DNA of 64,000 bases from Hyaloscypha bicolor E (Eukaryota; Ascomycota; Leotiomycetes; Helotiales; Hyaloscyphaceae). The position numbers and the translations under genes are program-made. The stretch lies in the NCBI RefSeq assembly GCF_002865645.1, contig NW_020194519.1, positions 1,857,542 through 1,921,541 of the forward strand, given 5' to 3'. Below the pieces are notes generated by a model. That model did no database searches and was not told the origin of the DNA. It saw only the letters and a list, made by a program, of their open reading frames with translations. Shown piece by piece: positions 25,601 through 51,295 of the stretch (positions are counted from its first letter, which is position 1; each line of letters starts with the position of its first letter).

Positions 25601-26284
25601 GAACCCTCAATCACCATGATTTCTCGCAGGCAATGTTTATATCCGGAAAAGTCTTGGTCCTATTGGCTTTTCAAAATAAACTTCAACATATCAACTCGAG
25701 AGTAGGGACACTCACTGCCTGCCATCACACCGGCTGTTAAGATCTAGGATGACGGCTCACCCAGGGACCTCCAAGACTTCTTCGAACCACATGGGATGTT
25801 TCTAGGTACTTCGCCCACTTTTCAACCACTGGTTCCCAACGCAACCCTCTCGATCCAGGCTTTGCTGATCGATTAGGGTCTTGCAATAACCTTCTCCCCA
25901 GAACTTAGGGTAAGGGCGCATTCAGACCAAAAGCGGATAACGTGGATATTTTCGACATTATTACGTTGATTGCAAGTTTCACGAAATATAAACAGCAGAC
26001 AGTTATTGGTCATGTAGAATTTGAAAGGACATACTCAGGGATAAACTGCAAGTAAAATAGGTCTTGACTGCCTGGAAGGAGCAGGAAGCGAGGAAGCGTT
26101 GCCGTACCTTAGCCTTCTCAGGCCACGAGCAATCTATTTTATATTAAAGCCACCAAGTGCCGGCTGGCGAGAGATGTCATCGCCCACGCAGAGTCCGTCG
26201 GGACGCTGGCGGATTACCAGATTCCGCATGGCGTCACTTCGTCATTCCGGTGCACATGACAAAACAATCCTTCTCGATCGCTGA

Positions 26285-26285
<1 letters not shown>
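22640..26285. other. Intergenic, no convincing gene
   Basis: Many short ORFs but no recognisable domain, no consistent codon bias and no splice-compatible chain. Base composition looks ordinary rather than AT-rich, so there is no obvious sign of heavy RIP. I see no transposase, reverse transcriptase or integrase fragment. Confidence 0.45.

Positions 26286-26325
<40 letters not shown>
26286..26325 (+). repeat. Homopolymer of 40 G
   Basis: Uninterrupted run of 40 G, flanked by CTGAC and TGTCCGCGCGC. It could be a real G-quadruplex-forming tract or a sequencing/assembly artefact. Confidence 0.9.
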
Positions 26326-26326
<1 letters not shown>

Positions 26327-29300
26327 GTCCGCGCGCATGATCAAAGGTGTGCCAGCTCTGGGGAAGACATCTTATCTCGTGGATGCGGAGCTATTGTTGA
26401 TGCAGCAGCGGACATGGCAATTAATATTCTGCGAGTCAGCACGCTGGGCCTCTGGGGGTGGCTTGGACACTCAAGTCATCCCACAATGACGGCATTGAAT
26501 GGCTGAACGTCAGATCAAACGGTTGCAGGGCTCTGGGTCAATGCAACGCTGTGGCTTGCTGTGGCGGCAGGTGGTGATCGACGTTGGCGGAAGGCCAGGG
26601 GAAGCAAACAGGGGCAGCGATATCTCTACCATTCATAAGACGCACCACAGGCAGGGGACGACAGGCACTGGCCCAGCCACCCCTCATTCTGGTCGGGTAA
26701 TGTGGTCCGTCAAGCCAAATATGTGCTGCTTCCACTGGCCCGCTGTACGTACAATAATTGTGTCAGCATGGGGATCACCCATCTGGTATTTCCGCATAAC
26801 TCTGCTCACAATGTGGCTCTTATTGCTGGGCACTGTTTGACGATCGACGGAACTCCACATGTGCTTGCGAAATTGTTCTCGGCGTGCATCAGTGAAAACG
26901 GGAACACGCTGCCAGGGTGAGACGAGCAGCAGCAGGCAGAAGCGCAATCCTTCTAGAAATCTTGGACGCCCTACCCGCGCCTCTGTGCCGGTTCCGAATC
27001 AGGGAGGGGGCGGCACTCACATATGAATATGTCTACAGTACAGTAATCACAGACAGGGAGGCGAACGTGTGTCCACAACCCCGCCGTAGCTGGGCATGCG
27101 GGAAAGGACGACGAGCGTCGTGTGTGGGGAAAATGCAAGCAGAAAGGCAAGCAGGAGGTCGTCCATCGTGCGGCTGCTCTTCGATTTCGAATTCTCGCAC
27201 CACTGCTTGGGTCCGATGTGCCGCGAAATTGCCGCGAAATTGCCGCGAAAAGGGGGAGTCGAGAACGAGTGCGAGTGCGAGTCCCGGCCTCAGGATTCAG
27301 GCGAACTCCTCGCTCCTCGCCTCGCTCCTCGCTCCTCGCCTGTGTCCACGGACAGTTGGTAACCTTACGGAGCACTACCCATCTTTGCTTTTTGCCGGAA
27401 AAACCTGGTTCCACTTGACCCGGCACGGCAGAACTGTTCATGCCCGCCAGTTTCACGTTTGTCCGTACCTGTGTTCCTGCATTTCCACCTCTCCTCGAGG
27501 CACCCTCTGCTCGTAACTGAACGTATAGCTGCAGGAGCTTCCAGCCTCCCGGCCTCCCGGCCTCCCGACCTCCCAGGCTGCTCCCAATTCAAAAGATTAT
27601 CATGGCTTGTTACTTCCTCGCCCGTCTCCAACATTACCAAGTGACGCTCCCGCACGCCGCCGTTCGGGAACGCAGCGATTGCCTTTGTATTAACCTCTCC
27701 TCCAAATGCAGTGCTTACCTGCAGTGGCACTGGATAGACCCTCTATCTTCATTTGGGGCAGTGCTACAGAAGCTGTCTCCAATTTGTCTCAGCCCTACGA
27801 ATAGTGGCAAACAATATACGAGCGTTCGCGAGATGTTCGCCAAGATTCGAGGAGAGGGGGGCCCACTGCTGACCCATTTTTGCAAACTCTGCGACGTCGA
27901 GGATGAGATGAGCTCCAAACCTTATTCTCATTTTCAAGGCCGATCTGAGGGGATCCGCTTGTCCTTGCCCTTCGGCTAGATCCATGTCTCAGATCGCCTG
28001 GGAGGCGCATGTCTCGGGCGGCGTGTGGCCTGCAAATCCCATCGAACAGGCCTGGCACTCGAATCACGGCGTGTGCAAGAAGTGGGGTCGACCAGCCAGT
28101 GGACGGAGGGACATCAGTTTTTTGGACGTGATCTTGGAAATCCGCGAGACTCGTTGCAGGAAGCTGCGCAACTGTTTCCCGGCTATTCGAGCATCGCTCA
28201 TCAAAGTTCTCCTCTCCACCTTCACTTCCCAGCTGAGCGTCGACCGTTGTACGTACGAGCACGCAGCCGCATGTATAGGGTCCCGGGCAGCCGGACCGCT
28301 CCTGGTCAGAGCAGAGGAACCGGAGGTAGGTGACTCAAAGGGCACTACTGCGAAGCATTGCATACTAGCTGCGGGAGAAGCGCAATGGAGGTGGAGATTT
28401 GGACGACGTCCGGACGCCGGAGGTGTAAAGATTTTAGGTCGTCGCAGAGAATGGTGGAACGACATGCCGAGGCCAGATGACGGGGCGGGAGGTGCACAGA
28501 CGCCCGCAGACAAACGCTGTATCCTGGTGGTTTGAACTCACAAGCCAGATGGAGATCTAATCGGATGCCTTACCTTGCCATGTGTCGTTGGCGCGGTTAA
28601 CTCGATCCTTTGGGAACCCTTTCGTCTCGTTTTGGGCCGGCTGTAGAGTGGACCTTCCTCGAAGCAGTACGGGCGAGCTGTTTCGGCCCAGGTCCCAAAC
28701 AAGGCTAGAAGGTAGAGAGGGATAAATGGCCGAAGGTGCCGCAAACAGCAGCGATGTTGAACGTTGCAGAGTGCAGAGTGCAGAGTGCAGAGTGCAGAGT
28801 GCAGAGTGCAGAGTGCAGAGTGCAGAGTGCAGAGTGCAGAGTGCAGACGGCGGTGTCTGTTCGAACCTCGAGGGCAGCACCTGGTGACCTGGGCAATGCG
28901 AGGCGAGGACAGGAATGCCCCGGCTGTTCTGAAACGGCGCAGCCGCAGCCTCAGCATCTCGCGGGCGGGCCTCGAGGGTACCGCAGCGAGGTCCTGGAGC
29001 GAGGTACGGATTGCAGCGAGGGAGGCCGTGAGGGAGCATGTGCCAGACTGCCAGACAGCGGGACTGCCAATAGCCAGACTGCCAACAGCCAGACTGCCAG
29101 ACTCAGACAGCCACACCAAGCTGATGGTCGGGTTCTCTCCCCACCTTCCGTGACCTTCCTTGCCTTGCCTGGCCTGACCCTACCGTCCCCTCCCCTCCCC
29201 TACCGCCGCCCCACTGCAACAGAAGGGGACCGGCGCCTTCTAGTCCTTCCGCGACCGTTGTTGCAACTTGCGAGCCTTCCCTTAGCGTGCCCGTCCGACC

Positions 29301-31510
29301 TCCACTTGATCCGACCCCCACAATGGCGCGCCATCGCCAAGAAGGGACGTCAAGAGATGCGATGTGCGAGGACCTCATTCCACTGCCATTATCACTGCCA
29401 TTCCCATTGCCATTACCACTGCCGCTGCCACTGCCAGCGAGTTTGGCTGCACTGCACTGCGCCACCGAATTTCACCCAGGCCTCCCTCCTGGGCCTCCTC
29501 CTCCCCCTCCTCTCATTCCTCCCATTCCTCCCATTCCTCCCCGCCCCTCCTCCTCCCCCTCCTCCTCCTCCTCCCTCTCACGGGCAGAAAAGCTCGCAGC
29601 CGAGCTGCCTTGGACCGACCGAGTCTCTGCATCTGCATCCGCATCCCACGCTGGCCGTTTCCTGCGTTCTCTGCAGGAACCGTTCGCACCCTCGTCTTCA
29701 CCCACTCCGTCGCCTGCCGCGGCGCCATTGGCGGCGAGAGGGATCGCCCACGAGGACATGATATGAGCAGGGTCGTCACGTTGTGAAGTCTTCACTTCAA
29801 TACCCGCAATCCTATCTACCCATGCTGAATCTGACGCCCCTTGCTGGCTTCCCTCCGCCTGAGCAGTCAGTCCCATGGGCCTACAGGGGCGCCCTGTGTA
29901 GTCGTGACAACGGCGATGCGTTGACCCGCATAAAACTGGCTGCCCAGGCACTGGAGCCCAATGATTTGCGCGAGGGCGTCCCAGCCTCGATCTCTCCGCT
30001 CGTCCCCTGCCACTTCTCTGCGGACGACAGACGCTGCCCCCCTCCGGCTCCCTCTTTTCCCTCCTTCTGAGTCTCGGAGTCCTGGTCCCTCCATCTGGCT
30101 TAGTTGAAGATCGATGCACCTCGCGAACTACCCAGGCAAGTCCCAGTTGGCCCGTTTATTACTGCTTCGTCTGTATCGGATGTATGCACAGGTCCCTCAC
30201 CTGGTTGCACACTCATCTTAACCACCGTCCTGCACCGTCCTTGATAGAGTGCGACCTGGCAGCCTTCTCGAGCTGCAATGTCATTCGCTACTGCCCCCAA
30301 GGAATTTCCCCATGACACTAGTCATTAAGCCGGAGTTCTCGTTCCGTGCTGCTATCATTCTCGACCTGTGGCTAAGCATCGAGAACTCTCTCATGTGTGG
30401 AACCCGTGCTGCCTGTCTTTCTTTCCTGTCTTCCTCATTAAATCTTCTTCGGCCTCCCTGGACGTGCTCTCGTCTGAAGTCTCACCAGCCCACCCCAGGC
30501 ACATCCGTGCAGCCCCTGTCCCCATCTTAGTTCACCATCGATAATTCTCCGCGTGTGGAACGCCTGAGTTTGGTACGGTAGTAATCTGCCTCCGCGGTAC
30601 TGTACGGCATGGGAAGGGCCTGGCAGGAAGTTGCGGACAACGAGGCGCTTCTCGGGTCTATTGCCCTTGTCGAGGAGATCATAGCCCAAGCATCATATGA
30701 AATCCCTTCAATCTTGCAATATATCACCCGTCGTCCGTCGATCGAACGTCCAGGTGGGCAAGCAGGATAACGGAGCCCTTCAACTTCAGGAAATTCTCTC
30801 ACTTCCCAAACCGGACGCCCCACGTCATAAAACCAGCAGCAATTTACCCTTTATTTGCACGAAGCAGAACACTCCCCGTAACATTTTAAGACCGTCGCGA
30901 TCCTGGGCCAGCATCGCTTCGTCTATATTTTGCAACCGCGTGGTCTGTGAACTCTCCGAATATATCGACTATTTTAAGCGCAACCACGCGTCCTGAAGCA
31001 CGCCCAGAGCCGGACGGCCTGCTTGTCTGATCCACCACCGAGATTGCGGGAGGATCTGGCAGCCTTATCTAGTTGAGGATCAGGCTTGAGTTGCTCATTT
31101 TGGACGACCTTTAACGCCTCCAGACGCTCCCGGAAAGAGCTCTGCACCGCCTCCGAGATACAGACACCGACACATCAGCGAGTCAATCTGACCCCCAACG
31201 AAACCCGCCTTGGATAGGCCTTCTGTTCTATTCTTGTCAGTGATCAGCTATTGGGCTTTTAGTGGCCCTCACTTTCGTTCATTTCACAGCTTCCTACCGC
31301 AACTGCTTCGCCACCTCCCCCACCATCAACATCTCGATCCTCGACAAAGAAGCAACACCAGAATCCCAGTGACGGACCAACTTCCAGTCTTTCTTGCATC
31401 AGAAGCAGATCTACCTCTCAATGCTTGTCACGCGCGCTTGTGATCCCGGACGGAACACTTGGTCTTCTAGCAAGCTTGAGGCCATCTATCAAAACGCCGC
31501 GTCTCCACGC
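26326..31510. other. Gene-free, simple-repeat-rich region upstream of the homeobox gene
   Basis: Visible tracts: three 12-mers GCCGCGAAATT(G/A) at 27221-27251; CCTCGCTCCTCG units at 27303-27338; CCTCCCGGCCTCCC units at about 27545-27572; the 7-mer array at 28766; GCCAGACTGCC-type repeats at 29041-29105; CCATT/CCACTG repeats at about 29380-29435; polypyrimidine CCTCCT at 29495-29580. Long ORFs on both strands here are low-complexity and are best explained by the repeats. The last few hundred bases are probably promoter and 5' leader of the homeobox gene. Confidence 0.55.
28766..28847. repeat. Perfect 7-mer tandem array (GCAGAGT)11
   Basis: Eleven perfect tandem copies of GCAGAGT (28766-28842) followed by a partial copy. 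There is no sequence degeneration, so the array is young or actively varying. Seven is not a multiple of three, but because it is uninterrupted it opens several reading frames (ECRVQSA-type periodic peptides), which are not genes. Confidence 0.95.
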
Positions 31511-33652
31511 ATGTCGAACTTTGAGCCATTGCCCGCGCAGCCAGACTGGCGAGAACAGTACTCAGGGTTCTCGCTTCCGGGTGACAATGAGTTGCTTCAA
31601 CCACCATTCGAGCGGGCTACAAGCTCGAGTATAGCGGACAATGCCCGGAACCAACACCAAAGCGGTTCAAGGCCACAGTTGGAGCACCGACACAGCCTGG
31701 GTCCGCTGAGCCAGGAGAGTCAGCCTGCTGCGATCATAGAAAGACCTGACTCTGCCCCTGGGGATTTTAGCCATCAAGTGAACGACGCAACTCGCGACGA
31801 CTCTCTCGTTTCAACAGAATCGACATCAATATCACTTGGATCACTTGGGTCGAACCCACTGAGCTCGGCATCAAGTGCGCCAGCACAACAAGGAACACTT
31901 GCGAACAATGAGGGAGGAGGTAGTGAAGGGGAAGTGAAGGATGAGGAGGATGAGCTTGACGACGATGATGAAATGCTGGACGCAGAACCAGAAGAAGGCG
32001 CGACCCCACAGACAGCCGCTGAGCGTCGAGCAGAGCGCAGAAAAATGAAACGTTTCCGGTGAGAAAGCCCACTCGTCTTACTTTGTAACCAGCTAATTTC
32101 CGTTAGCTTAACTCACCAACAAACCCGTTTCCTGATGAGTGAGTTCGCGAAGCAAGCTCATCCAGATGCAGCCCACCGAGAACGACTTTCTCGAGAAATC
32201 CCAGGTTTGAGCCCTCGACAAGTGCAAGTATGGTTTCAAAATCGGTAAGAAATGGCGCCTAAAGGTTTTCATATCCGAATACTGACAGATTGTAGCCGAG
32301 CGAAGATAAAGCGATTGACAGCCGATGATCGAGAGCGTATGATGAAGATGAGGGCAGTACCCGATGATTTCGACAATGTGCAAGCTTTGCATTCTCCTTA
32401 CGGAGCTGTGCATGGCATTGGGACGCCGATGCAATCACCAGCCGATTTTGGCTCGAACTTCACAGACCATATAATGCGGCCCTTGATGGTAGACACGATG
32501 AGGCGCAATGACAACGACGACCACATGTCACCCACGGGGCTTAGCCCAGCCTTTGGCCATGTGGGATTCGCTCAAGGAGGTTCCATGGGAACACCTGATG
32601 CACTGTCTCCATCGTCATTGAACTCGGCGGACCGGTACTATCCAAGTCACCTCGCGAGCCCGTTGAGTGCGGGTCCTCGGAGCTCCAACCCCTTCGATCG
32701 CCAGAATAGCTACCAAACAGTGTCCCAGTCGAGACAGCATGTCAGGCCTTTGCAGCCACTGCAGCTTCGAGATACTTTGTCGAGGTCAAGATCAGACTCG
32801 ATTCAGTCTCCATTAAGGTCGAGCATGTCCTGGAAAGGAGAAACATTGGATTATGGAAACTACCAAACAGGGCAGCCGAGCCCACAATTGACCGGTCGAC
32901 AGCAATCCGTGTATCAGCCGGACCAAATGAGTACTAGCAACGTTAATGCGCATCAATATGATGCCAATGCGTATTCAAGTTCGTCCCAAGTTTCTCAAAT
33001 TTTTTCACAACCCTTGCGAAGATCACCCGTGCTAACTCTTCTCGTCCCAGATGCGAATATGCAAAACTCACCAACTCACATGACGTACTCTCCGTCGCAT
33101 GGCCCTGGTGCGTCTGCGTCGACTCTTCAACAGCAGTCGCCGTCCGCGATGTCTCGACTTCGAGCCACGTCTGGAACTTTCCCAGCAGGATTAGATCTTC
33201 GGACTCAGTACCGACCAATGCCCTCGCAGGGCAATTCTCCCCGTGGGCTGCCAGCGACACCGAGAAGCAGCTCATTTGCAAATGCTTTCACCGGTGGCTA
33301 CGCGAGCGCGCCTCTCACGGCACCAGTGGACTTTCAACTCCCGCGGACGCCAATCGATGCTAGCAACCGGGATTTCAACATACCACAATTGAGCGCGCCA
33401 ATGGCGCCACCACAAGATTTTTCTAACGCTTATAATTCGAATCTCAGTCCAGTTAGGGGACAGCAAGGTGATAGAGACTTCGGTAATCAGGGACAGAATA
33501 ATGAGGATCCTGGAGGCCAGGGCCCGGGTCAGGTTGGGGATCAACAGCAAACTAGAAATAATGAGGAGTCTTACCTAAGACCGGGTCAGTACGAGACGGA
33601 CCAAAAGCGGAGGAGTAGTTTCACCATGCCGGGTGCATTTGAAAGCCCATGA
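31511..33652 (+). CDS. Homeobox transcription factor, Htf1/Pah1-type
   Basis: Three exons (31511-32058, 32107-32244, 32296-33652) give 680 residues. An acidic Ser-rich N-terminus leads to a homeodomain at about 178-240: FRLTHQQTRFLMSEFAKQAH, REIPGLSPRQVQVWFQNR, RAKIKRL, with an intron inside recognition helix 3 between NR and RA. The flanking TADDRERMMKMRAVPDDFD is shared with Magnaporthe Htf1/Hox2 and Podospora Pah1, which control conidiation or development. The rest is long, disordered, and Ser/Pro/Gln-rich. Start: an in-frame Met at 31394 exists, but 31511 is preferred because MSNFEPLPAQPDWREQYSGF looks like a genuine N-terminus. A possible in-frame intron at 32979-33050 (GTTCGT...CAG with GCTAAC branch site) would shorten the protein by 24 residues. 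Confidence 0.9.
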
Positions 33653-41240: not shown

Positions 41241-42447
41241 TCAAAACTTGTCACTGTCTATCCAAATGTAATTGCTCTCCCAGCCCACGCTTCCTCCAAC
41301 CGACTTCATTACACCTTTGCTCTCTCTATTCCCGACCTTCACATCTGAATGTGTCCATCCACTGTTCCCATCAAACCCCAAATCTTGAAATTCCCCTCTT
41401 TCCAAACGACTTAGAAGTTCCACAGCAACAAACGAGGCCAGCCCTTTCCCTCGATGATCAGGTAACACATACAGAGTTGCAAAGCTTCCATCAATTCCAA
41501 TATATCCCCATGCCACCAACCTCCCCTCCTCATTTAACAACCCAACACTCGGAAGGAGCAGCAGTGTAGATGCTTGGCGCGGGATTGTGGAGGTGGCTAT
41601 TACAATCTCCAGATGGTCTTCTGGAACTCTAGCGACGGTATACCCTCCCGGAAGCGCTCTTCTTTCGCTGGAGCTTGAGGAGACATTAGATGTGGATACG
41701 ATCCATGAGTTCCACCTCGTAATTCGAGGCACGGCGTCTTTGGCCGAGCCGATGTTGAGGAGTGCGGATCCGATATGTTCATGGAGAGACCCATATTTGA
41801 GTATCGGAGAGAAAGGCCAACCAGGGGCTTGAGGTATTGGAGTGTTCTTGAAGAAGTAGATGGAGGCTTCCTGTTGAATTGGTACTAGCTTACTAGTCCT
41901 TCCAGTACCAGGTTCAACTACTAATATTAGCTTCGCCACTCTCATTTATAATGGTTTACTATGGAAGCCTATGGAATAGCTCACTATGGAAGCTCAGGGA
42001 ACGCTCACTAATATATATGAGTCATCTGATTTATAATATACTAGAGGAAATCGCCACCCACTAGTGGGTATATAAGAACTGTACTTTAGATTCCTCCTCT
42101 CCTTTTTTACTCTTCACTCTCCTGTATCTAGTCATTTTACAGATTGTCAACCTCCAATATATCGATTTTCCATCAATAAATCGATCACTTTCCAATACTT
42201 CCAAGTGGGCACTAAGTGTCTCCTTCTGAGCCTTGGAGAGGGAAGGGGTGGTGATTAGAGGATTGAAGATCCAAATCTGGGATTCCCAGTGACGAGAGCG
42301 ATCACCAAAGAGAATAGTATAAGTTTCCGAAGGGTTGGTTGAAGGTGGAAAGGTTGCGGCGAAAATGCAATGCCTGGAAGGAAGATTTTGCGGGCATCGA
42401 ATCCGATTATAGAGAGGATTGCTGTGAGGTAGATGAGAGAAGAGCAA
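41241..42447 (-). pseudogene. GNAT-family N-acyltransferase, interrupted
   Basis: Two coding blocks on the same strand belong to one fungal GNAT (FR47-like) protein. The N-terminal block (42447 to about 42160) has SHLPHSNPLYNRI and ILFGDRSRHWESQIWIFNPL. The C-terminal block (about 41870-41241) has PEDHLEIVIATSTIPRQ, LPSVGLLNEEGRLVAWGYIG, the acetyl-CoA loop LPDHRGKGLA, and SGWTHSDVKVGNRESKGVMK. Between them about 290 bp (41870-42160) is AT-rich, repetitive and full of stops, and no splice pair I can find restores the frame. The simplest reading is a gene broken by a small insertion. The C-terminal ORF could still give a 234-residue product, but its first 25 residues would come from the inserted sequence. 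Confidence 0.6.
41870..42062. repeat. Small insertion with hairpin and short repeats
   Basis: Inverted arms GTTGAATTGGTACT and AGTACCAGGTTCAAC flank a 17-nt loop at about 41875-41922. Next to it CTATGGAAGC recurs three times (about 41952-41990). A palindrome CCACTAGTGG-like motif lies at 42057-42066. Together this looks like a MITE remnant sitting in the GNAT gene; exact ends are unclear. Confidence 0.4.
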
Positions 42448-42632
42448 AGGAAGGAAGGTTGAATTGGCAGTCTCTTACGAATGCAAGAAGAATTAGACTC
42501 GGTTTTGAATCATGTTTTCGTCTTGTGCGCTGCTCTCTGAGCCTTTGAGGAAGCGAGGTTTTATCCTTTGGATAAATTTGTGTGGGCCCTTGATTGCTCT
42601 TGTGCATGTGGTAGGATAAAGTCTTAAGAATA

Positions 42633-42910
42633 ACGTCCATCCCTGCGTGCCGGAAAAATTGATAGGTACTTTGACTTCAAGCATCTTGAAATCTGTTCAC
42701 ACCGTAGTATCTCCCATAATTTTTTACAATTTATATTACATGGCCACTCCTGGTTACCCTAAATGCCTACGGCTACAAAATCATGTTGGCATCGTCACCT
42801 TCAGGCCTGATTTACAAAGGGTGTCCTTTGGTAGTATAATAGATCCCCCCTACTATAGTCCTATCACCAGACTTCTGTTACCCCTAATACCTATAAAGGG
42901 GTTCATCCGA
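42633..42910 (+). repeat. Left terminal inverted repeat of the NLR element
   Basis: Best conserved over the first 70 bases (including GATAGGTACTTTGACTT and CTGT(T/G)CACAC), then patchy up to CTAATACCTATAAA. An open frame beginning MPEKLIGTLT covers it, but the matching frame in the right repeat differs in most positions, so it is not treated as a gene. Confidence 0.7.
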
Positions 42911-43255
42911 GCTCTTGAGCCCTTTATTGATATGTGGGAGATCGTTATCAGCCCTGTGGCTGCTGTGGCGTGCAGATTTATGCAAGATCGTCAGGCGGGG
43001 TCGGTACCTCGGCAGAGCGGGTGACGATTTTGGTTAGTGCAAGGTAATCCCGCACCTACTACAATACGAGAGTGCCAGCCTACAATTCGCTCGCAGCCGG
43101 TCTAGGGCTGACAATGCTTCTTGATGATTCTAGAATCAAGTAGTAATTATACTCTACTATATATTTACACGTTCCCTTAGAACCCTCTGTAAAAAAGAAA
43201 GAAAAACATAAAAGAAGCATTACATACAGGAGACAATTCTTCGCATTTTTTAAAG

Positions 43256-46200
43256 CTAAACGAATTTAGACCCTTTTTCAATGTATAGAAATGAAATTCT
43301 TCCCGACGCATGTCCTAAGATAACTGCCCTACCCCACTCCGCTTCACAAGTAGGTCGATAATCAATAGGTAGCCAGAGGAGATTAGTATTGCCTTCTGCT
43401 AGCCAATGATTATTTACGTGTAAATGTGGTAACAGCTTACCGTCGGGAGAAAAGGCCACGGAAGTGACATGTGACGAGTGGCCCTCGAGCGTCTGCTGCA
43501 GGGCGCCAGTAGCCGCGTCCCAGAGCCGCACTATCTCATTATAAGATCTGGACACAATCTGCTTACCGCTAGGAGAGAAGGCTACTAAACGGACCGTGCC
43601 CGAGTGGCCCTTAAGTGTCTGTAGCAAGGCTCCTGTAGTAGTGTCCCAGAGCCGCACTGTCTCGTCATCAGATCCAGACACAACCTGCTTGCCATTGGGA
43701 GAGAAGGCTACTGAACGGACGACCCAGCCCAAATGGCCCTCGAGTGTCTGCAGCGGGGCTTTTATAGCAGCGTCCCAGAGGCGCACTGTCCTGTCATAAG
43801 ATCCAGACACGACCTGCTTGCCGTCGGGAGAGAAGGCTACTGAAGTGGGCAAGCTCGAGTGGCCCTCGAGTATCTGCAGCGGGGCTCCTGTAGCAGCGTC
43901 CCAGAGCCGTACGGTCCTGTCACCAGATCCAGACACGATCTGCTTACCGTTAGGAGAGAAGGCTACTGAAGGGACCGAGTAAGAGTGGCCCTCGAACGTT
44001 AGCAGCGGGGCTCCTGTAGCAGCGTCCCAGAGCCGTATAGTCTTATCATCGGATCCAGATATGACCTGCTTGCCATCAGGAGAGAAGGCTACTGAACGGA
44101 CCGAGTCCGAATGGCCCTCGAGCGTTTGTAGCAAGGCTCCTGTAGCAGCGTCCCAGAGCCGTACTATCTTATTATCAGATCCAGACACGACCTGCTTGCC
44201 ATCGGGGGAAAAGGCTACTGTATAAACGGCCCAGTCTAGGTAGCCCCCAAACGTCTGTAGCATAGCTCCTGTAGCAGCGTCCCAGAGCCGTATGGTCTTA
44301 TCATCAGATCCAGACACGATCTGCTTACTATCAAGAGAGAAGGCTACTGAATGGACCGAGTCTGAGTGGCCCTCGAACGTTAGCAGCGGGTCTCCTGTAG
44401 CAGCGTCCCAGAGCCGCATAGTCTTATCATTGGATCCAGATATGACCTGCTTGCCATTAGGAGAGAAGGCTACTGAAGTAATCGAGTAAGAGTGGCCCTC
44501 GAGTATTTGTAGCGGGGCTCCTGTAGCAGCGTCCCAGAGCCGCACTATCTTATCATGAGATCCAGATACGACCTGCTTGCCGTCGGGGGAAAAGGCTACT
44601 GAACAGACCCAGCTCGAGTGTCCCTCGAGCGTCTGTAAAGCAGCACTCCAATCCGCTTGTACTTTTGGTTTTCTCTGAATCCAAGTCGGGATAGACCCTT
44701 CAAATTGTCTCCGAACAATACTCCTCTCTGGGGCGAAGATAAGGGCTGAACAGTATAATTGAAGGGGCGCCTGTTCAATAATTGATCGGTTATATAGAGC
44801 AAATCGCCTTGTATCATGGATAAATGCGTGAAAATCGGGGGTTTTAATAGCCTAAGGACAAGTTAGATTCTAATAAATAATAGATAGACAGCTTACCTGA
44901 ACGTGAGCCTCTAATATCAAGATTGCTTGAATCCCTTCTGACGTCTTACCCATCCACCCTAGCGCCTCAAGCCAGTGTAGTAGATGAGCTTGCAGAAACC
45001 GGTGGGCTATTTCGCCATTATGAGCCTGAGAACCACTCCTTTGCAGATGTTGAACCCAGTAGAGGCATGCGTATTGAATTTCGGGAGGAAGGCATTTCTT
45101 AATCCAATCGCTCTCAACTTGGCTAGTTTGACTACTAGGAATATGCATTTCGCAAATGTCCTTCTTCAGTGTCTGGGACATTAACTGTATACAGTCAGTT
45201 GCTAATAACTGGTGTGCCTCCTTCTCTTCTATCCAGAAATCCCCACATCGATCTTTGTTGAGGAGGAAGTCGCGAAATGAAGGGTGGTGTAGGCGGAGCT
45301 GGTGAGTCGGGTCCTCTGGAACATCAAGGATCGCATGGAGATCCTCAAATGTCTGGTCGACCTCTTCCTTTGGAAGGCGCGATAGCCTGCTTAGCGAAGA
45401 GGCAGAAAGAGGCGAGAGCAATACTACTACACTTCCAAGCGTAGACTTTAATATATCGCGTGCCTCTTCTTTCTCTTCATCCGAATAGTCCGAGGAGATC
45501 GAGTTCTTGAGGACAGCGAGGTAGATCTCGTCGAGGTGCTTCTCTGGTGCGGTAATAGCGCTACTGCTACTGCCCGTGAGGATTTTATCTAGTCTTTTGC
45601 GTGCGAATCGCCTCCCCTCACGAATGAAGCGACAAGCTGTTGCAGCCCAAATAAAGAGACCACAAGCGTGCAGAACTAGCTGTCTCAAAATTACTTCGCC
45701 TGGCCAGTCTGCTTCAAAAGTCCACTCTTGTCTGATTTCCCCCAGATTATGTTCCAGGAATAGCGAGATATCATGGTTAATGATCCTTGGCTGTATACTG
45801 TGGAGTACGAAGTCCTGGTGTTCAGCTTGCGGGATAGCGCCCATGCGATGTCGAATTAGAATTTCAGGTCTACTAGTCAAAAAGATTCGAAGTCGTACTC
45901 TCGTCAATGACCGAGCTTCAGCTAGGAGCTTCAGAATAGTCTGAACATCTCTATCATCCTCACACTCATCAAGTGCGTCAACGACAATAATGTAACAATG
46001 ACATGGTTCACTCTGCAGTTTCGATAGTGGACTTAGAACAAGCTGACGCCACTGCTCCGAGAGGGAGAGGCTTGCAATATCACTCCGTTTTTTAGTAGCC
46101 TTATGGATGTATTATCGAAGGGATGGCACATTACAAGCGAGCTGCACCGCTAGACTTGTGAAGAATTTGTCGGCATGGCCCGCATCTCCGCCGCCCTTTG

Positions 46201-47274
46201 AGAAGAAGAAGCTGGCTCCAAGACGCTTCTGCTCGTCGTATCTGTGCGCGACGGTGCGGGAGATTGTTGACTTTCCCGTCCCAGCTAGACCGTTCAACCA
46301 AAAGATGCATCGCTCATATTGTCCATCTGCTGCATCAGCCCAGTTATATATCCCTTGTAGGAGGTCGACGCGTGTGTCAGGGAGGCAGCCAGGTTCGTAT
46401 TGGCGGTTATATGAGTTGAAGGGCGCCTCATAAGCATATGGTAGGTGATGAAGTAGGTCTTTCTCAGGGCCTGAACTGCTAGTTAGCGCTAGTTTTAACA
46501 GTGCGTTAAGTATTAATCATAGGGATAGGACTTACTCTTGGAAGGTTTATCGATTGCCTCTCGGAGCCGCTGAAACGCCTTGGCCTCTCCTTCGCCATAA
46601 AGAAGGGGCATTTGGACATCGAAAATGCCAAATAGCGAGTATGCCTTGTCTTCTCCGCGTGTGGTCTGTCGACTTTTTGCCCATAAGAATCGTTCATCAA
46701 TGCCGAATTGGGAGAGGGGGTTTTCTCGAAGTGCCGTGGCAGGGATTCCCGTAATCTCGTAGATTTGTTGCTCTAGAGTTCTCTTATTTCCTATTCGGTT
46801 ACCTTCCCGGGAAAAGAATTCAACTGATCTTGGAGCAAGGAGTTCCTGTAAGGTCCAGCCTCGGGTAAACCATTTGCTTACTCGGAAAGCAGATTCCCAA
46901 GTATACTCGGCAGACGTATCGCTTGCTTTCCGCTTTAGTGTCGAAACATCCGATAAATAGACGTAGCATCTAACCGCTTTCTGGTACCAGCGAAACATCG
47001 AGTTGATAGCCTCTGCGAGCTCGTTACTGCTCGATTTATCGATGCAACATGTGTCCACCCAAAAGTATTGCAGCTTGTCGCGCCTGGCTTGTTCTCCACA
47101 GAGCTGTATCTTATCGTAGCCAGTCTTGTCTTTACTTGTACCGTCTGTCAGATCCTTGAACGTGACCTCCTCCGCTCCCCATCTGTGTGAAAGTATAGCA
47201 TACTCGGGTATGTCGTCTTCAAAGAACTCGGTCAGGCTGGGGTTGCCTTTGCCATCTAGCTGTAGCAGACGCAT
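43256..47274 (-). pseudogene. HET-NACHT-WD40 NLR gene with one in-frame stop
   Basis: Three exons (47274-46536, 46470-44897, 44851-43256) give 1303 codons in perfect phase. Domains: HET at about 1-210 (IPEYAILSHRWG, FWVDTCCID, WFTRGWTLQELLAP, AYSLFGIF); NACHT with Walker A GLAGTGKST, Walker B YIIVVDALDE, and a helical domain; then nine full and one partial 42-residue WD40 repeats (SVAFSPDGKQVVSGS, RLWDAATGA). This is the HET-E/HET-D/HET-R (HNWD) architecture of Podospora, which detects non-self and triggers incompatibility cell death. Codon 366, just after VQLACNVPSLR, is TAA; the frame then continues with YIHKATKKRSDIA. CAA to TAA is a plausible single change. Nothing else is broken, so it is a recent null allele, a readthrough case or a base error. 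Confidence 0.85.
43430..44640 (-). repeat. WD40-coding 126-bp tandem repeat array
   Basis: About nine and a half direct repeats of 126 bp (one repeat has an extra codon) with very similar sequence, coding the sensor region of the NLR gene. Differences concentrate in the residues before SVAF (for example SYSIT, SDSVH, LDWAVY, SSLPT) and around GSxDxTxRLWD (SNDKTM, SGDRTV, SDNKIV, SYDRTV). The framework is almost invariant, as expected under repeat shuffling. Confidence 0.9.
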
Positions 47275-47819
47275 TATTCCACTAAATTCGAGGATCGCAG
47301 GCGGAAGGGTTCTCGGTAGCCGATGAGCCGTCGAAATAGCATAGATGCGGAGTGATGTTGGAGAAGACGTCGTGTTGAGGCTGGCGGACTCAGCCTCGCG
47401 GCAGCCTCGCGGCAATGACATCGTCCATCATCACTGGAAGCGCAAGACCAGCCAGTCGCTCAGATTGGAATTCTAGAAGCCATCGGAATAGGATACTCGA
47501 AGCCACTTTCGATTGAGCATGATTTGTTCTTGTCGCTAAAAAGGAGCCGATGGAATTAGAGAGTGGACAATATAAACAGAAACCTAGGATATTGAATTTA
47601 CCTTTCGATCTTTGGAGTTCGATCATCTAGCCTTGAATCTTAGGCAGAAGTTTGTTTTTCAATTGTGTCCGTTATGAAAGCGCGGGGTCGTCGCCCTAAC
47701 CAAATATCGTTAGTTACTTCGATTCGAGGTACTGTCCCGTGTAGCAGCCATGTTTAAATATACGATCTATAGCAGCCACAAAGATGATGACGGCTACCCA
47801 GATGGTAATAAGGGTTTTA
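47275..47819. other. 5' flank of the NLR gene inside the element
   Basis: Presumed promoter and leader of the NLR gene. The HET frame stays open upstream to 47421 without a conserved motif; Met at 47274 (MRLLQLDGKG) is chosen because HET proteins of this type start with an MRLL-like sequence. Confidence 0.5.
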
Positions 47820-48118
47820 AGATCAGATAAGACTATTTTATAAGTATTAGAAGTGATAAAAGTTTGATAGCGAGGCTATAGTTAGAAAAGTATCTTGCGT
47901 CATAAAAAGGGGCTGCCCGCAGATCAGGCCCTCGGGCGGCGAAACCAACGTAATTCTGTGATAGGAGGGCTTCGAGAGCTTCAATAGTAGCTACTAAATA
48001 ATACTTGCATAATTTTCTGAGTTTTATCGATGTGTGCACAGAGTTCAAGTTGCTCAAAGTCAAAGTACCTATCATTTTTTCCGGCACGTAGGGTTTTCCG
48101 GCACGCAGGGATGGACGT
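47820..48118 (-). repeat. Right terminal inverted repeat of the NLR element
   Basis: Reverse-complement counterpart of the left repeat. It carries a 17-nt tandem duplication of the subterminal CGTGCCGGAAAA motif (about 48077-48106) that the left copy has only once. Ends with GGACGT followed by TA. Confidence 0.7.
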
Positions 48119-48612
48119 TAGGGACCATGAGTCACTCGAAGAGCGATCACCGAACGAAGACTGCCACACGTGACCTAACCCCCTATTCATCATCACGTGC
48201 ATGTGGCGGCAACCTCAAAATTGGCGTCTGCCTTCTTTCCTCCAACGTGCTTGCACACAATCACCACAGACTCGAATTCCAATGTCCATTCCACAATGGG
48301 CAGCATGGCATCGGCAGGCAAGTGACACAGCAGGTCGGTCGATTGAGCAGGGGCACACCCGTACACCTGCCTTTTCCCGTGTGCTCGAGTGGGCAAACAT
48401 TCGCTCCTACCCTGCATGGCAACTGAGATATCGGGGATCTCACATGATTTCCAGAAGGCTGCAGAACAAGGGACATGGTTCAATAGCGCGTTGTCTGCAA
48501 GACTCTTCCGAGAATTCTAAGATATTATTGTCGAACAATTACAAGTGTCCATCACTTTCTTCTGTACTTTCAGGACTCACTTGACTCCTTGATTATCACT
48601 TTTCCATCGACG

Positions 48613-51295
48613 ATGCGTTCCATTTTCCTTGAATTCCTTCTTGCCTTTGTCGCAACAGCTCAAAGTGCAGCTGTCCCTTCTTCTCATGTGCTTCACGAAA
48701 AGAGGGACCCAGCCTCTTCAAAGCAATGGGTCAGACGCGAAAAGCTTGCATCAACTGAAATCCTCCCCATGAGAATTGGGCTGAAGCAGAGGAATCTTCA
48801 CCGAGGTCATGACTTCCTCATGGATAAGTACGTTTCGCTTCATGACTTCCAAAGTACAGGGATTCTGTAGCTAACTGCAGTGCAGCTCCCATCCAGATTC
48901 TGCAAACTACGGGAAACATTGGACTTCTAGTCAAATCATTGACATGTTTGCTCCCGAGCAAAAGAGCGTTGATGCCGTTCAAGAATGGCTGGATGGCTTT
49001 GGAATCGGACCCAGACGAGTGTCCCGATCACAAAACAAAGGTTGGCTCGCATTTGATGCGACAACGGAAGCAGAAGAGAGCCTTCTCCACACAGAATATC
49101 ACCACTACGAGCACAGGTCTTTGGGCCATACGACTCTGGCGTGCGAAAGGTAAGCAGAACCTGTCCAACAACGCACATTATATGCTGACTATCCGTTAGC
49201 TACCATCTTCCCAAACACATCCAAGAACATGTAGACTATATTACGCCGGGTATCAAACTCTTTGCATCAACCAAAAACCGCCGCAACCTCAAGCGTGGAT
49301 TTGGTGAAGGAGGGTTCCCGTTGGTAGCCACTCCAGAGGGCTTCCCTGGCACAGCTGTCACGGCCTGGACAAGCTGTGGAAGTGGAAAGTGGTGTGTTTT
49401 GGTATAAATATGTATGAATGATGGTGCCCTAAGGGCGGTGAAGAAGCTATATATACGCCTGTACGCAGCACGTGACAACAGCTGCGGGAGAGCTTTCGAC
49501 CTGCGACGAATTCATAACTCCTGCATGTATTAGGTCTCTTTACAATGTTCCAGAAATCCCTGAGTACGCCAAAACTGGGCCACGTGTTGACAATTCGATG
49601 GGAGTATTTGAAGAAGGCGACTTTTACTCTCCGAAAGATCTCGGTCGGTCTTACCTCAGTCCCAGATTGATATACTCTCAGATCACTGCTGATCCCAGAG
49701 AAAGATCTCTTTTTCGCTAACTTCACTCCCCGAATTCCTCGAGGGACGCGGCCTATCCCAGCCCTAATCGATGGCTCTGATTTACACACAGATGTTTTGT
49801 GGGCAGGAGGAGAGTCTAATCTTGATTTTCAACTTGCTTACCCACTCATCTTTCCACAAAATATCACATTGTTTCAGACAGATGACCGCTACTATGCGGC
49901 GACTGCTGGACCTAGGAGTGGTTTCTTTAACACATTTCTAGACGGTATAGACGAGTCCTACTGCAAATACTCAGCTTTCGGTGAAACTGGAGATGACTGT
50001 TCGTTTCCCTTCTTCCTCGTTTCATGAATCTCAGAAAGGACTGACTATTCAAGCGAAACTTGACCCAAAATATCCAGATCCGATGGTCTGGGGTTTTCAG
50101 GGCAAGACTATGTGTGGGGTATTCAAGGTAAATGGACATCTGGAAGGCTTCACTGTTGGCAATTGGACTAAACATAGATGCTAGCCAACAAAGGTGATCT
50201 CTATTTCGTATGGAGGACAAGAATCAGACTTGCCGGCATACTATCAGCAACGGCAATGCAACGAGTAAGACAATCTCACTTGATTAGAAGATGATGCTAC
50301 TAATAAGAACTTTCAGATTCATGAAACTTGGACTTCAAGGCCACTCCGTCTTCTTTGCCTCGGGAGATACGGGTGTTGCTGGGGCTCCTCGGCCTTTATT
50401 GGGCAAGGACAGATGTCTCGGTCCAAATAGTACCATTTTCAGCCCTGCTTGGCCAAATACATGTCCATATGTCACAAACGTTGGCGCTACAAAGGTTTTC
50501 CCCAACCGTTCAGTCAGGGACCCCGAAAGCGCGGTTGTTGACCCTCCTGGGCATCCTTGGCGGGTGGCATACTCTTCAGGGGGAGGCTTCAGCAATATTT
50601 ATGCTCGACCTGACTACCAGAAGCACGCTGTAACCAACCTTTTTCCTTGTCCTATATCCCGAGCTCCTTATCTCACTAGTCGGCAGGATGTTTCATACTC
50701 GGCTCTCTCCCGGCTCCATTCTCCCCGAAGAGACGTGTTGCTAATATATTGTTGTAGGTCAGCAAGTACTTGAGAGATCATAAGCCTCCGTATCCGTGTT
50801 ACGAGTCTATTAGCAACTCAAGCTTTGACAAGCACGGCGGCCTCTTCAATCGGCTGGGGCGAGCGTAGGGAACCCCAATTCAATAGCCTGGAATATTTGC
50901 TAATTTTGACAGGTACCCCGATGTAGCTGCTAATGGCGACAACATCGTAGTCTATATAAATGGAGAGTTCCAAATCTCTGGAGGGACCAGTGCCAGCACC
51001 CCGATCTTCGCCTTCCTGATCAACAGGATCAATGAGCTTCATCTGAACGCTGGGAAGAGTACCGTTGGCTTCATCAATCCTGCCTTATATTCTCATCCCG
51101 AGATGCTAAATGACATAACGAATGGGACGAATCCCGGTTGTGGGACTGCTGGCTTCTCTGCTGCTCCGGGTTGGGATCCAGTGACAGGCTTGGGTAAGTC
51201 TGCATATCGAGTTGGGAGGAAGAAAAGGTATACTGACTCCGTCAGGAACTCCGAATTTCCCAAAGATGGTGAAGTTATTCATGAACTTGCCGTAG
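48613..51295 (+). CDS. Secreted S53 peptidase (sedolisin / tripeptidyl-peptidase)
   Basis: About ten exons, roughly 600 residues. The signal peptide MRSIFLEFLLAFVATAQS is followed by a pro-kumamolisin activation domain (SANYGKHWTSSQIIDMFAPE) and the catalytic domain: Glu/Asp pair in GGESNLDFQLAYP, oxyanion Asp in FFASGDTGV, and nucleophile in SGGTSAST. The end, GWDPVTGLGTPNFPKMVKLF, is typical. S53 enzymes are acid serine-carboxyl peptidases that release tripeptides; fungi secrete them for nutrition. Exons 1-2 are 48613-48827 and 48886-49149; the last intron ends just before 51246 and the stop is at 51293. The intron following SCGSGKW (about 49390-49465) is approximate. Odd: intron 49999-50053 is GTTCGT...AAG, and intron 49644-49698 sits between 10-bp direct repeats. 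Confidence 0.85.

Follow-up and report, generated by a model that had tools for sequence, protein, structure and literature searches.

A receptor gene between transposon ends in Hyaloscypha bicolor: probable cargo of a non-autonomous Fot1/pogo-like element

The sequence analysed in this work, referred to as the window, is a stretch of 64,000 nucleotides from Hyaloscypha bicolor E (assembly GCF_002865645.1, contig NW_020194519.1, positions 1,857,542 to 1,921,541), in which a NOD-like receptor (NLR) gene lies between terminal inverted repeats (TIRs). The element proper occupies positions 42633-48118 (5,486 bp; C5:1900174-1905659, here the C5 element), with TA at both borders, and its interior is filled by a single gene on the minus strand that encodes a HET domain, a P-loop domain and WD40 repeats. 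A first-pass annotation of the window had described 25 identical terminal bases, a TA directly outside each end and exactly one gene inside, all of which were confirmed; with the TA included, 27 bases are identical between the inverted ends (42631-42657 and 48094-48120; TA plus the 25-bp TIR, 100%). The features, in window coordinates, are as follows.

42631-42632, no strand: TA bordering the left end, presumably one copy of the target duplication
42633-42657, plus: left 25-bp TIR
42633-43055, plus: left R-type end, about 420 bp of family end homology, 17-bp repeat present once only; 76.5% identical to the R-end of the C4 element described below
43256-44851, minus: WD40 repeat part of the NLR (PF00400), with 126-bp units in 9.2 copies at 43475-44635
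44852-44896, minus: probable intron (GTAAGC...TTAG), judged by eye
44897-46470, minus: central P-loop part of the NLR (NACHT-like; PF24883, NPHP3_N), also compared with protein P0135
46112-46114, minus: in-frame stop codon within the NACHT-like domain, where P0135 reads through
46471-46535, minus: intron (GTAAGT...CAG), frame-tested; a second acceptor at 46489 also keeps the frame
46536-47421, minus: HET-domain exon of the NLR (PF06985, E 4.5e-14)
47691-48118, minus: right R-type end, 67.7% identical to the C4 R-end and 69.5% to the C51 R-end
48077-48110, no strand: tandem 17-bp repeat inside the right end, a similar pair being visible in many aligned family ends
48094-48118, minus: right 25-bp TIR
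48119-48120, no strand: TA outside the right end

The domain order HET-NACHT-WD40 first assigned to the gene was recovered in part. Pfam returned the HET domain and WD40 (9 stretches), but the P-loop domain between them scored as NPHP3_N, not NACHT, and contains the in-frame stop; in P0135, the closest relative with a source name, the P-loop domain scores as both NPHP3_N and NACHT. Position 47421 of the HET exon is the first ATG of the open frame, and the true start may be further in (P0121 starts later). The receptor of the C5 element is probably no longer made whole. No close donor gene for this NLR was found in the genome; the nearest HET paralog, C1:312283, has 67% identity and is itself flanked by facing ends of the transposon family described below, 17.8 kb apart.

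Inverted homology of roughly 280-300 bp had been reported on both sides of the gene. This homology is real, but it is longer and looser, extending over about 420-430 bp with the two arms 63% alike. Each arm is a copy of one family end type (R-end), and identity to three reference R-ends is 72-77% for the left arm and, over its full length, 68-69% for the right. At the inner border of either arm no TIR was seen (up to 6 mismatches allowed), and a pair of independent miniature inverted-repeat transposable elements (MITEs), which the annotation had itself named as a finding that would refute its reading, was rejected on this ground. The tandem 17-bp repeat of the right end may be a double transposase-binding site. 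Composition shifts at the element borders: TpA/ApT is 0.97 inside the element, against 0.66 and 0.67 on its two sides and 0.65 for the window as a whole, element included. No transposase had been noticed inside, in agreement with a search using the C4 transposase, which found no remnant within the C5 element, and an Rfam scan of 42000-48800 at the gathering threshold gave no match.

Inverted pairs of the 25-bp end were sought in the 82-Mb genome, as the annotation had proposed. With up to 3 mismatches the end was matched 49 times (25 forward and 24 reverse, C5 pair included) and the reversed-pattern control not once, and a pattern tolerant of repeat-induced point mutation (RIP; C-to-T and G-to-A allowed) gave 95 matches versus 4 for its control; a chance origin of the inverted ends was rejected on these counts. 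Family ends were pooled by hand from the best candidates only, with some positions approximate to tens of bases, so that the resulting counts (122 ends and 31 facing pairs up to 20 kb apart) are rough. Twenty-nine of the 31 pairs span 3-18 kb, and two are MITE-sized, at C51:2166747-2166981 (235 bp) and C1:384112-384575 (464 bp). TA stands directly outside 30/30 ends at end loci L009-L038 (C5 ends included); it makes up 4.2% of dinucleotides in the window. Among 18 complete or near-complete elements, one MITE being left aside, 13 pair an L-type end (up to about 540 bp) with an R-type end, and five are R-type at both ends: C5, C54, C27 (weak matches), C57 and C70:796104. Within C54, C27 and C57 each arm is most closely related to its partner, which is not so in C5 (63%) or C70:796104 (78%).

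An element with similar ends, C4:1540875-1547791, bears a transposase reading frame just inside its L-end, with DDE_1 (PF03184, E 1.1e-29) and HTH_Tnp_Tc5 (PF03221, E 5.2e-5) domains. It answers in part to the autonomous relative that was to be searched for, but one conserved acidic residue is missing: two conserved D residues are kept and the third acidic position is N, where six aligned relatives have D, and for this reason the C4 copy may be dead. The conserved D positions are presumably the catalytic residues. The reading frame of a second copy, at C51:2177198, stays open for 631 aa. Transposase remnants, N-terminal or other, were found in 7 further elements among 17 sequences searched, and none were found in C27 and C54. 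A transposase relative in Cadophora is 89% identical, with others in Pseudogymnoascus, Lachnellula, Alternaria and more, a range in keeping with a host among the Helotiales. We take DDE_1 in this family to denote Fot1/pogo; TA borders, TIRs and the DDE_1/HTH domains being present, the family combines Tc1/mariner-type TA borders with a Fot1/pogo-like transposase.

Empty sites were searched for by comparing the joined flanks of six elements with the genome and scoring the best 40 of 220 candidates. At least 12 copies of a repeat of about 190 bp run across the C51 junction, at least 15 copies of a repeat of about 185 bp across the C4 junction, and two sites across the C3 junction. Four of the 29 spanning sites were aligned (two for C3, one each for C51 and C4), and all have a single TA where the occupied site has two, with small gaps elsewhere in the three C3 and C4 alignments and one base in the C51 alignment. 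The C3 element, whose empty sites are exact, carries a patatin-NB-ARC-TPR gene (its NB-ARC match being below the curated cut-off), and because this receptor carrier has single-TA paralogous empty sites, whole receptors have been moved by the family. For C33 and C22 no empty site was found among the same candidates, only self halves. Empty sites were thus recovered for three members, one of them NLR-bearing, but not for the C5 insertion, for which the annotation had proposed to look. The C51 element in question (C51:2156542-2163707) lies inside a repeat of about 190 bp with inverted ends that occurs in at least 12 other places and is perhaps a MITE of another family.

The arrangement at the C5 locus recurs at C27:1134667-1139241, where HET and WD40 lie between family ends that have TA directly outside. 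Identity to C5 is 73% in the HET exon and 72% in each of the two spacers, from end to HET and past the WD40 repeats. The shared gene block starts just inside the end of about 430 bp. In C5 the ATG lies 697 bp from the end; in C27 the HET alignment opens at residue 7 of the C5 protein, 700 bp from the end. The outside flanks of C27 are unrelated to those of C5 (z -0.6 over 105 bp and -0.9 over 155 bp), and its central third is full of stops. At C54:1267170-1271728 a HET-NB-ARC-TPR gene lies between R-ends, with spacers unlike those of C5, and a common receptor-element ancestor of C54 and C5 was not upheld (spacer z 0.2). C53:144546 and C70:2906812 have an L-end, part of the spacer and HET in common, and one side of the C53 element abuts another element. 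At C53:144545/144546, where these family elements abut, the R-end of one is without its outer 51 bp or so and the next L-end begins there; the element with this L-end holds a HET paralog of the C5 receptor.

Taken together, the conserved ends, the border TA, the related transposase gene, the empty sites of three members and the recurrence at C27 make it likely that the C5 feature belongs, as a non-autonomous member, to a TA-inserting Fot1/pogo-like family that carries host genes, its cargo being one HET-NACHT-WD40 receptor. A transposase from another member would act in trans on the ends of the C5 element, binding at the paired 17-bp repeats, of which the C5 left end has one copy only, and the unit would have been cut out and reinserted at a TA that separates two host reading frames. 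RIP-like mutation probably wore the element afterwards. The annotation had proposed a unit able to mobilise a whole NLR gene when a transposase is supplied in trans, or did so once; the proposal is supported, and its second form fits better than present mobility. Since no empty site was found, the gene has an in-frame stop and no transposase lies inside, the C5 element is most likely an old, decaying insertion. We regard the evidence as strong for mobility of the family, moderate for the C5 insertion, moderate for a special link to receptors and weak for present activity.

The link to receptors was approached through a cargo survey of 15 elements picked by end pairs, four of them after the HET candidate list existed, the list being unused in the choice. 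Left out of the count were L039, L041, L048, L049 and L050, at which no facing ends were recognised, and paired elements whose sequence was not examined; L041 has a HET...WD40 gene beside one R-end. The cargoes were distributed as follows.

HET or NLR genes, 5/15: C3 (patatin-NB-ARC-TPR); HET in C33:2019849, C22:2262675, C53:136891 and C70:2895404
Transposase, 1/15: C4
Other or unnamed protein, 7/15: C51:2156542, C70:5612696, C70:3813071, C70:796104, C70:887841, C22:1082282 and C57:5272
No reading frame >160 aa, 2/15: C24:2905380 and C1:4229939

The C57 element (C57:5272-9828, L059, R-R) holds a Zn2Cys6-like regulator (Zn_clus just below cut-off) and an HD-domain-like protein (below cut-off), and its TIRs have a RIP-decayed look.

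Capture may be indiscriminate, the receptors being hitchhikers that were taken up since HET/NLR genes are very common, as cargo without a selected role. We lean towards this explanation, which rivals only the claim of a dedicated receptor vehicle and may hold alongside a transposed C5 package. The genome yielded 785 HET candidates at first look (150 scored), no HET/NLR gene was recognised in ten of the 15 surveyed elements, stops occur in both the C5 NLR and C27, and few members of broader receptor sets lie within 5 kb inside an end (NACHT 1/82, HET paralogs ranked 32-117 1/86). These last counts, together with 1/24 for NB-ARC (the C54 gene), do not uphold the idea that all NLRs of the genome travel in the family, and the majority of the receptor genes recovered lie away from any recognised end of the family. 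On the other side, HET/NLR genes in 5/15 cargoes give a binomial p of 6e-4 at an assumed 5% baseline. Among the 30 closest HET paralogs (C5 excluded), five lie within 5 kb inside an end, none lies outside only at 5 kb and one does at 8 kb, versus 2/150 Pfam HET genes (Fisher p 0.0016) and 1/92 P450 genes within 5 kb inside an end. Bracketing by facing ends to left and right within 15 kb holds for 5/30 of the closest HET paralogs (the C51 case being doubtful, with a MITE supplying its left end, and one C54 end being known only from direct retrieval), 2/150 Pfam HET genes and 0/92 P450 genes. That the Fot1/pogo-like family is a standing vehicle for genes of allorecognition and immunity, in which varied receptors are repeatedly packaged, carried to new loci and there either diversified or destroyed by RIP, is a tentative proposal, which we consider possible but rather doubtful. 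Its cargo would comprise HET-NACHT-WD40, HET-NB-ARC-TPR, patatin-NB-ARC-TPR and HET genes head to head with a transposase gene, with ends exchangeable between packages.

At three loci a HET paralog stands head to head with a family-related transposase, at a distance of about 290-350 bp: C51:2176037-2176906(-)/2177198-2178280(+), with a transposase 76% identical; C1:1275654-1276376(-)/1276695-1277473(+), 38-55% identical; and C70:802784-803494(-)/803845-804897(+), 37% identical. At the C70 locus (L040:7104-9898) the HET, WD40 and transposase matches are in A+T-rich, RIP-like sequence. These loci could be autonomous receptor-carrying elements.

For the C5 locus itself, it is unlikely that a resident NLR gene came to lie between two independent inverted element ends and was never mobile as a unit, though several observations weigh in that direction and against movement of the package as a whole. 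Both arms are of R type instead of the more usual L-R combination, they are only 63% alike, and each is nearer to the ends of other elements. The corresponding ends of C27 and C5 are 59% and 52% identical, below the R-end pair median of 69% (n=276), and the central third of C27 gave no alignment to C5. In the same genome no empty site was found for the C5 insertion among the best 40 of 220 candidates, only self halves, and one family end beyond the L009-L038 set, C70:5616306, has no TA outside. Because gene and spacers are 72-73% identical but the ends 59% and 52%, the history of the ends differs from that of the gene and its spacers; on the same figures, C5 and C27 were not upheld as plain transposed copies of one element. 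As the ends were not inherited with the gene, C27 is no proof that the whole C5 receptor element transposed: either one receptor element had its ends later exchanged, or two related receptor loci were packaged separately. Enclosure of a resident gene that never moved is opposed by the lack of an inner TIR at either arm, by the repetition at C27 of a gene block just inside an end and at nearly the same distance to HET, by the composition shift at the element borders, and by the exact empty sites of C3, another NLR-bearing member. If the C5 package did transpose, the unlike R-ends and the differing histories of gene and ends suggest joint mobilisation of two adjacent elements on either side of an NLR, or a later exchange of ends by recombination. 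Spread of NLR and ends by segmental duplication or ectopic recombination instead of transposition is very improbable: the sister arms of C54, C27 and C57 and the differing gene and end histories indicate that recombination between ends probably occurs, but C5/C27 similarity ends at the TIRs (105 and 155 bp of flank compared), other members have exact single-TA empty sites, and segmental duplication was rejected because the flanks are unrelated as far as compared.

The C5 element works like a Pack-TYPE element with Fot1/pogo-like machinery and an NLR as cargo, having TIRs with a target-site duplication, coding DNA of host origin and no transposase. Pack-TYPE transposons of plants, including Pack-Mariner, are described in the portion of the source available as non-autonomous elements with TIRs, target-site duplications and captured coding DNA between conserved ends, for which a model of two adjacent insertions mobilised as one is given (PMC8903248). 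The two-insertion model fits the unlike R-R ends of the C5 element without proving it; the C5 family differs in being fungal, in its Fot1/pogo-like transposase and in a cargo that is a whole multi-exon receptor gene, for which the genome yielded no close donor. Mobile elements of Pezizomycotina bearing NLRs are also known among Starships, one Gaeumannomyces Starship carrying a sesA-NACHT-WD40 NLR and patatin-like genes being cited as Starship cargo in the accessible part of that report (PMC12134995). Starships, however, are giant and of the tyrosine recombinase class, whereas the C5 family has TIRs, TA borders, a DDE transposase and, in 29/31 pairs, a span of 3-18 kb. A Pseudocercospora hAT element that captured histone H3 and was later hit by RIP (PMC6710886, from an excerpt) is likewise a fungal TIR DNA transposon with a host gene and subsequent RIP, but it holds one intronless housekeeping coding sequence in hundreds of copies, in contrast to the many cargoes of the C5 family and the intron kept in C5.

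The Podospora NWD family (het-d, het-e) unites HET, NACHT and WD in one gene, a build resembling that of the C5 gene with its HET, NACHT-like P-loop and WD40 parts, and also has reported RIP-inactivated members; in the sections available, its history is described as duplication and RIP, not as packaging by transposon ends (PMC1805685). A paper on Sordariales NLRs expects RIP to conflict with NLR duplication, and its main text, as far as available, is without the terms mobile, Starship and inverted repeat (PMC12258605). No report of a small TIR or Fot1/pogo element carrying NLRs was seen among the papers listed in literature searches that covered few subscription journals. These observations bear on how fungi gain, lose and disperse large, variable NLR/HET repertoires, for which a small DDE family with entire receptors would offer a direct and testable route, with presence or absence by insertion and excision, placement at new loci and exposure to RIP. 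Were the family a standing vehicle, part of NLR birth, death and presence/absence polymorphism would be transposition of ready-made receptors.

In the remainder of the window, a GNAT-like acetyltransferase reading frame (FR47, E 1e-5) lies to the left of the C5 element at 41241-41945 on the minus strand, and open frames without an assigned family lie to its right. The region 26000-32000 is G+C-rich (2-kb bins at 0.54-0.61, against 0.49 overall) and has a run of 40 G bases at 26286 and TGCAGAG repeated 12 times at 28765.

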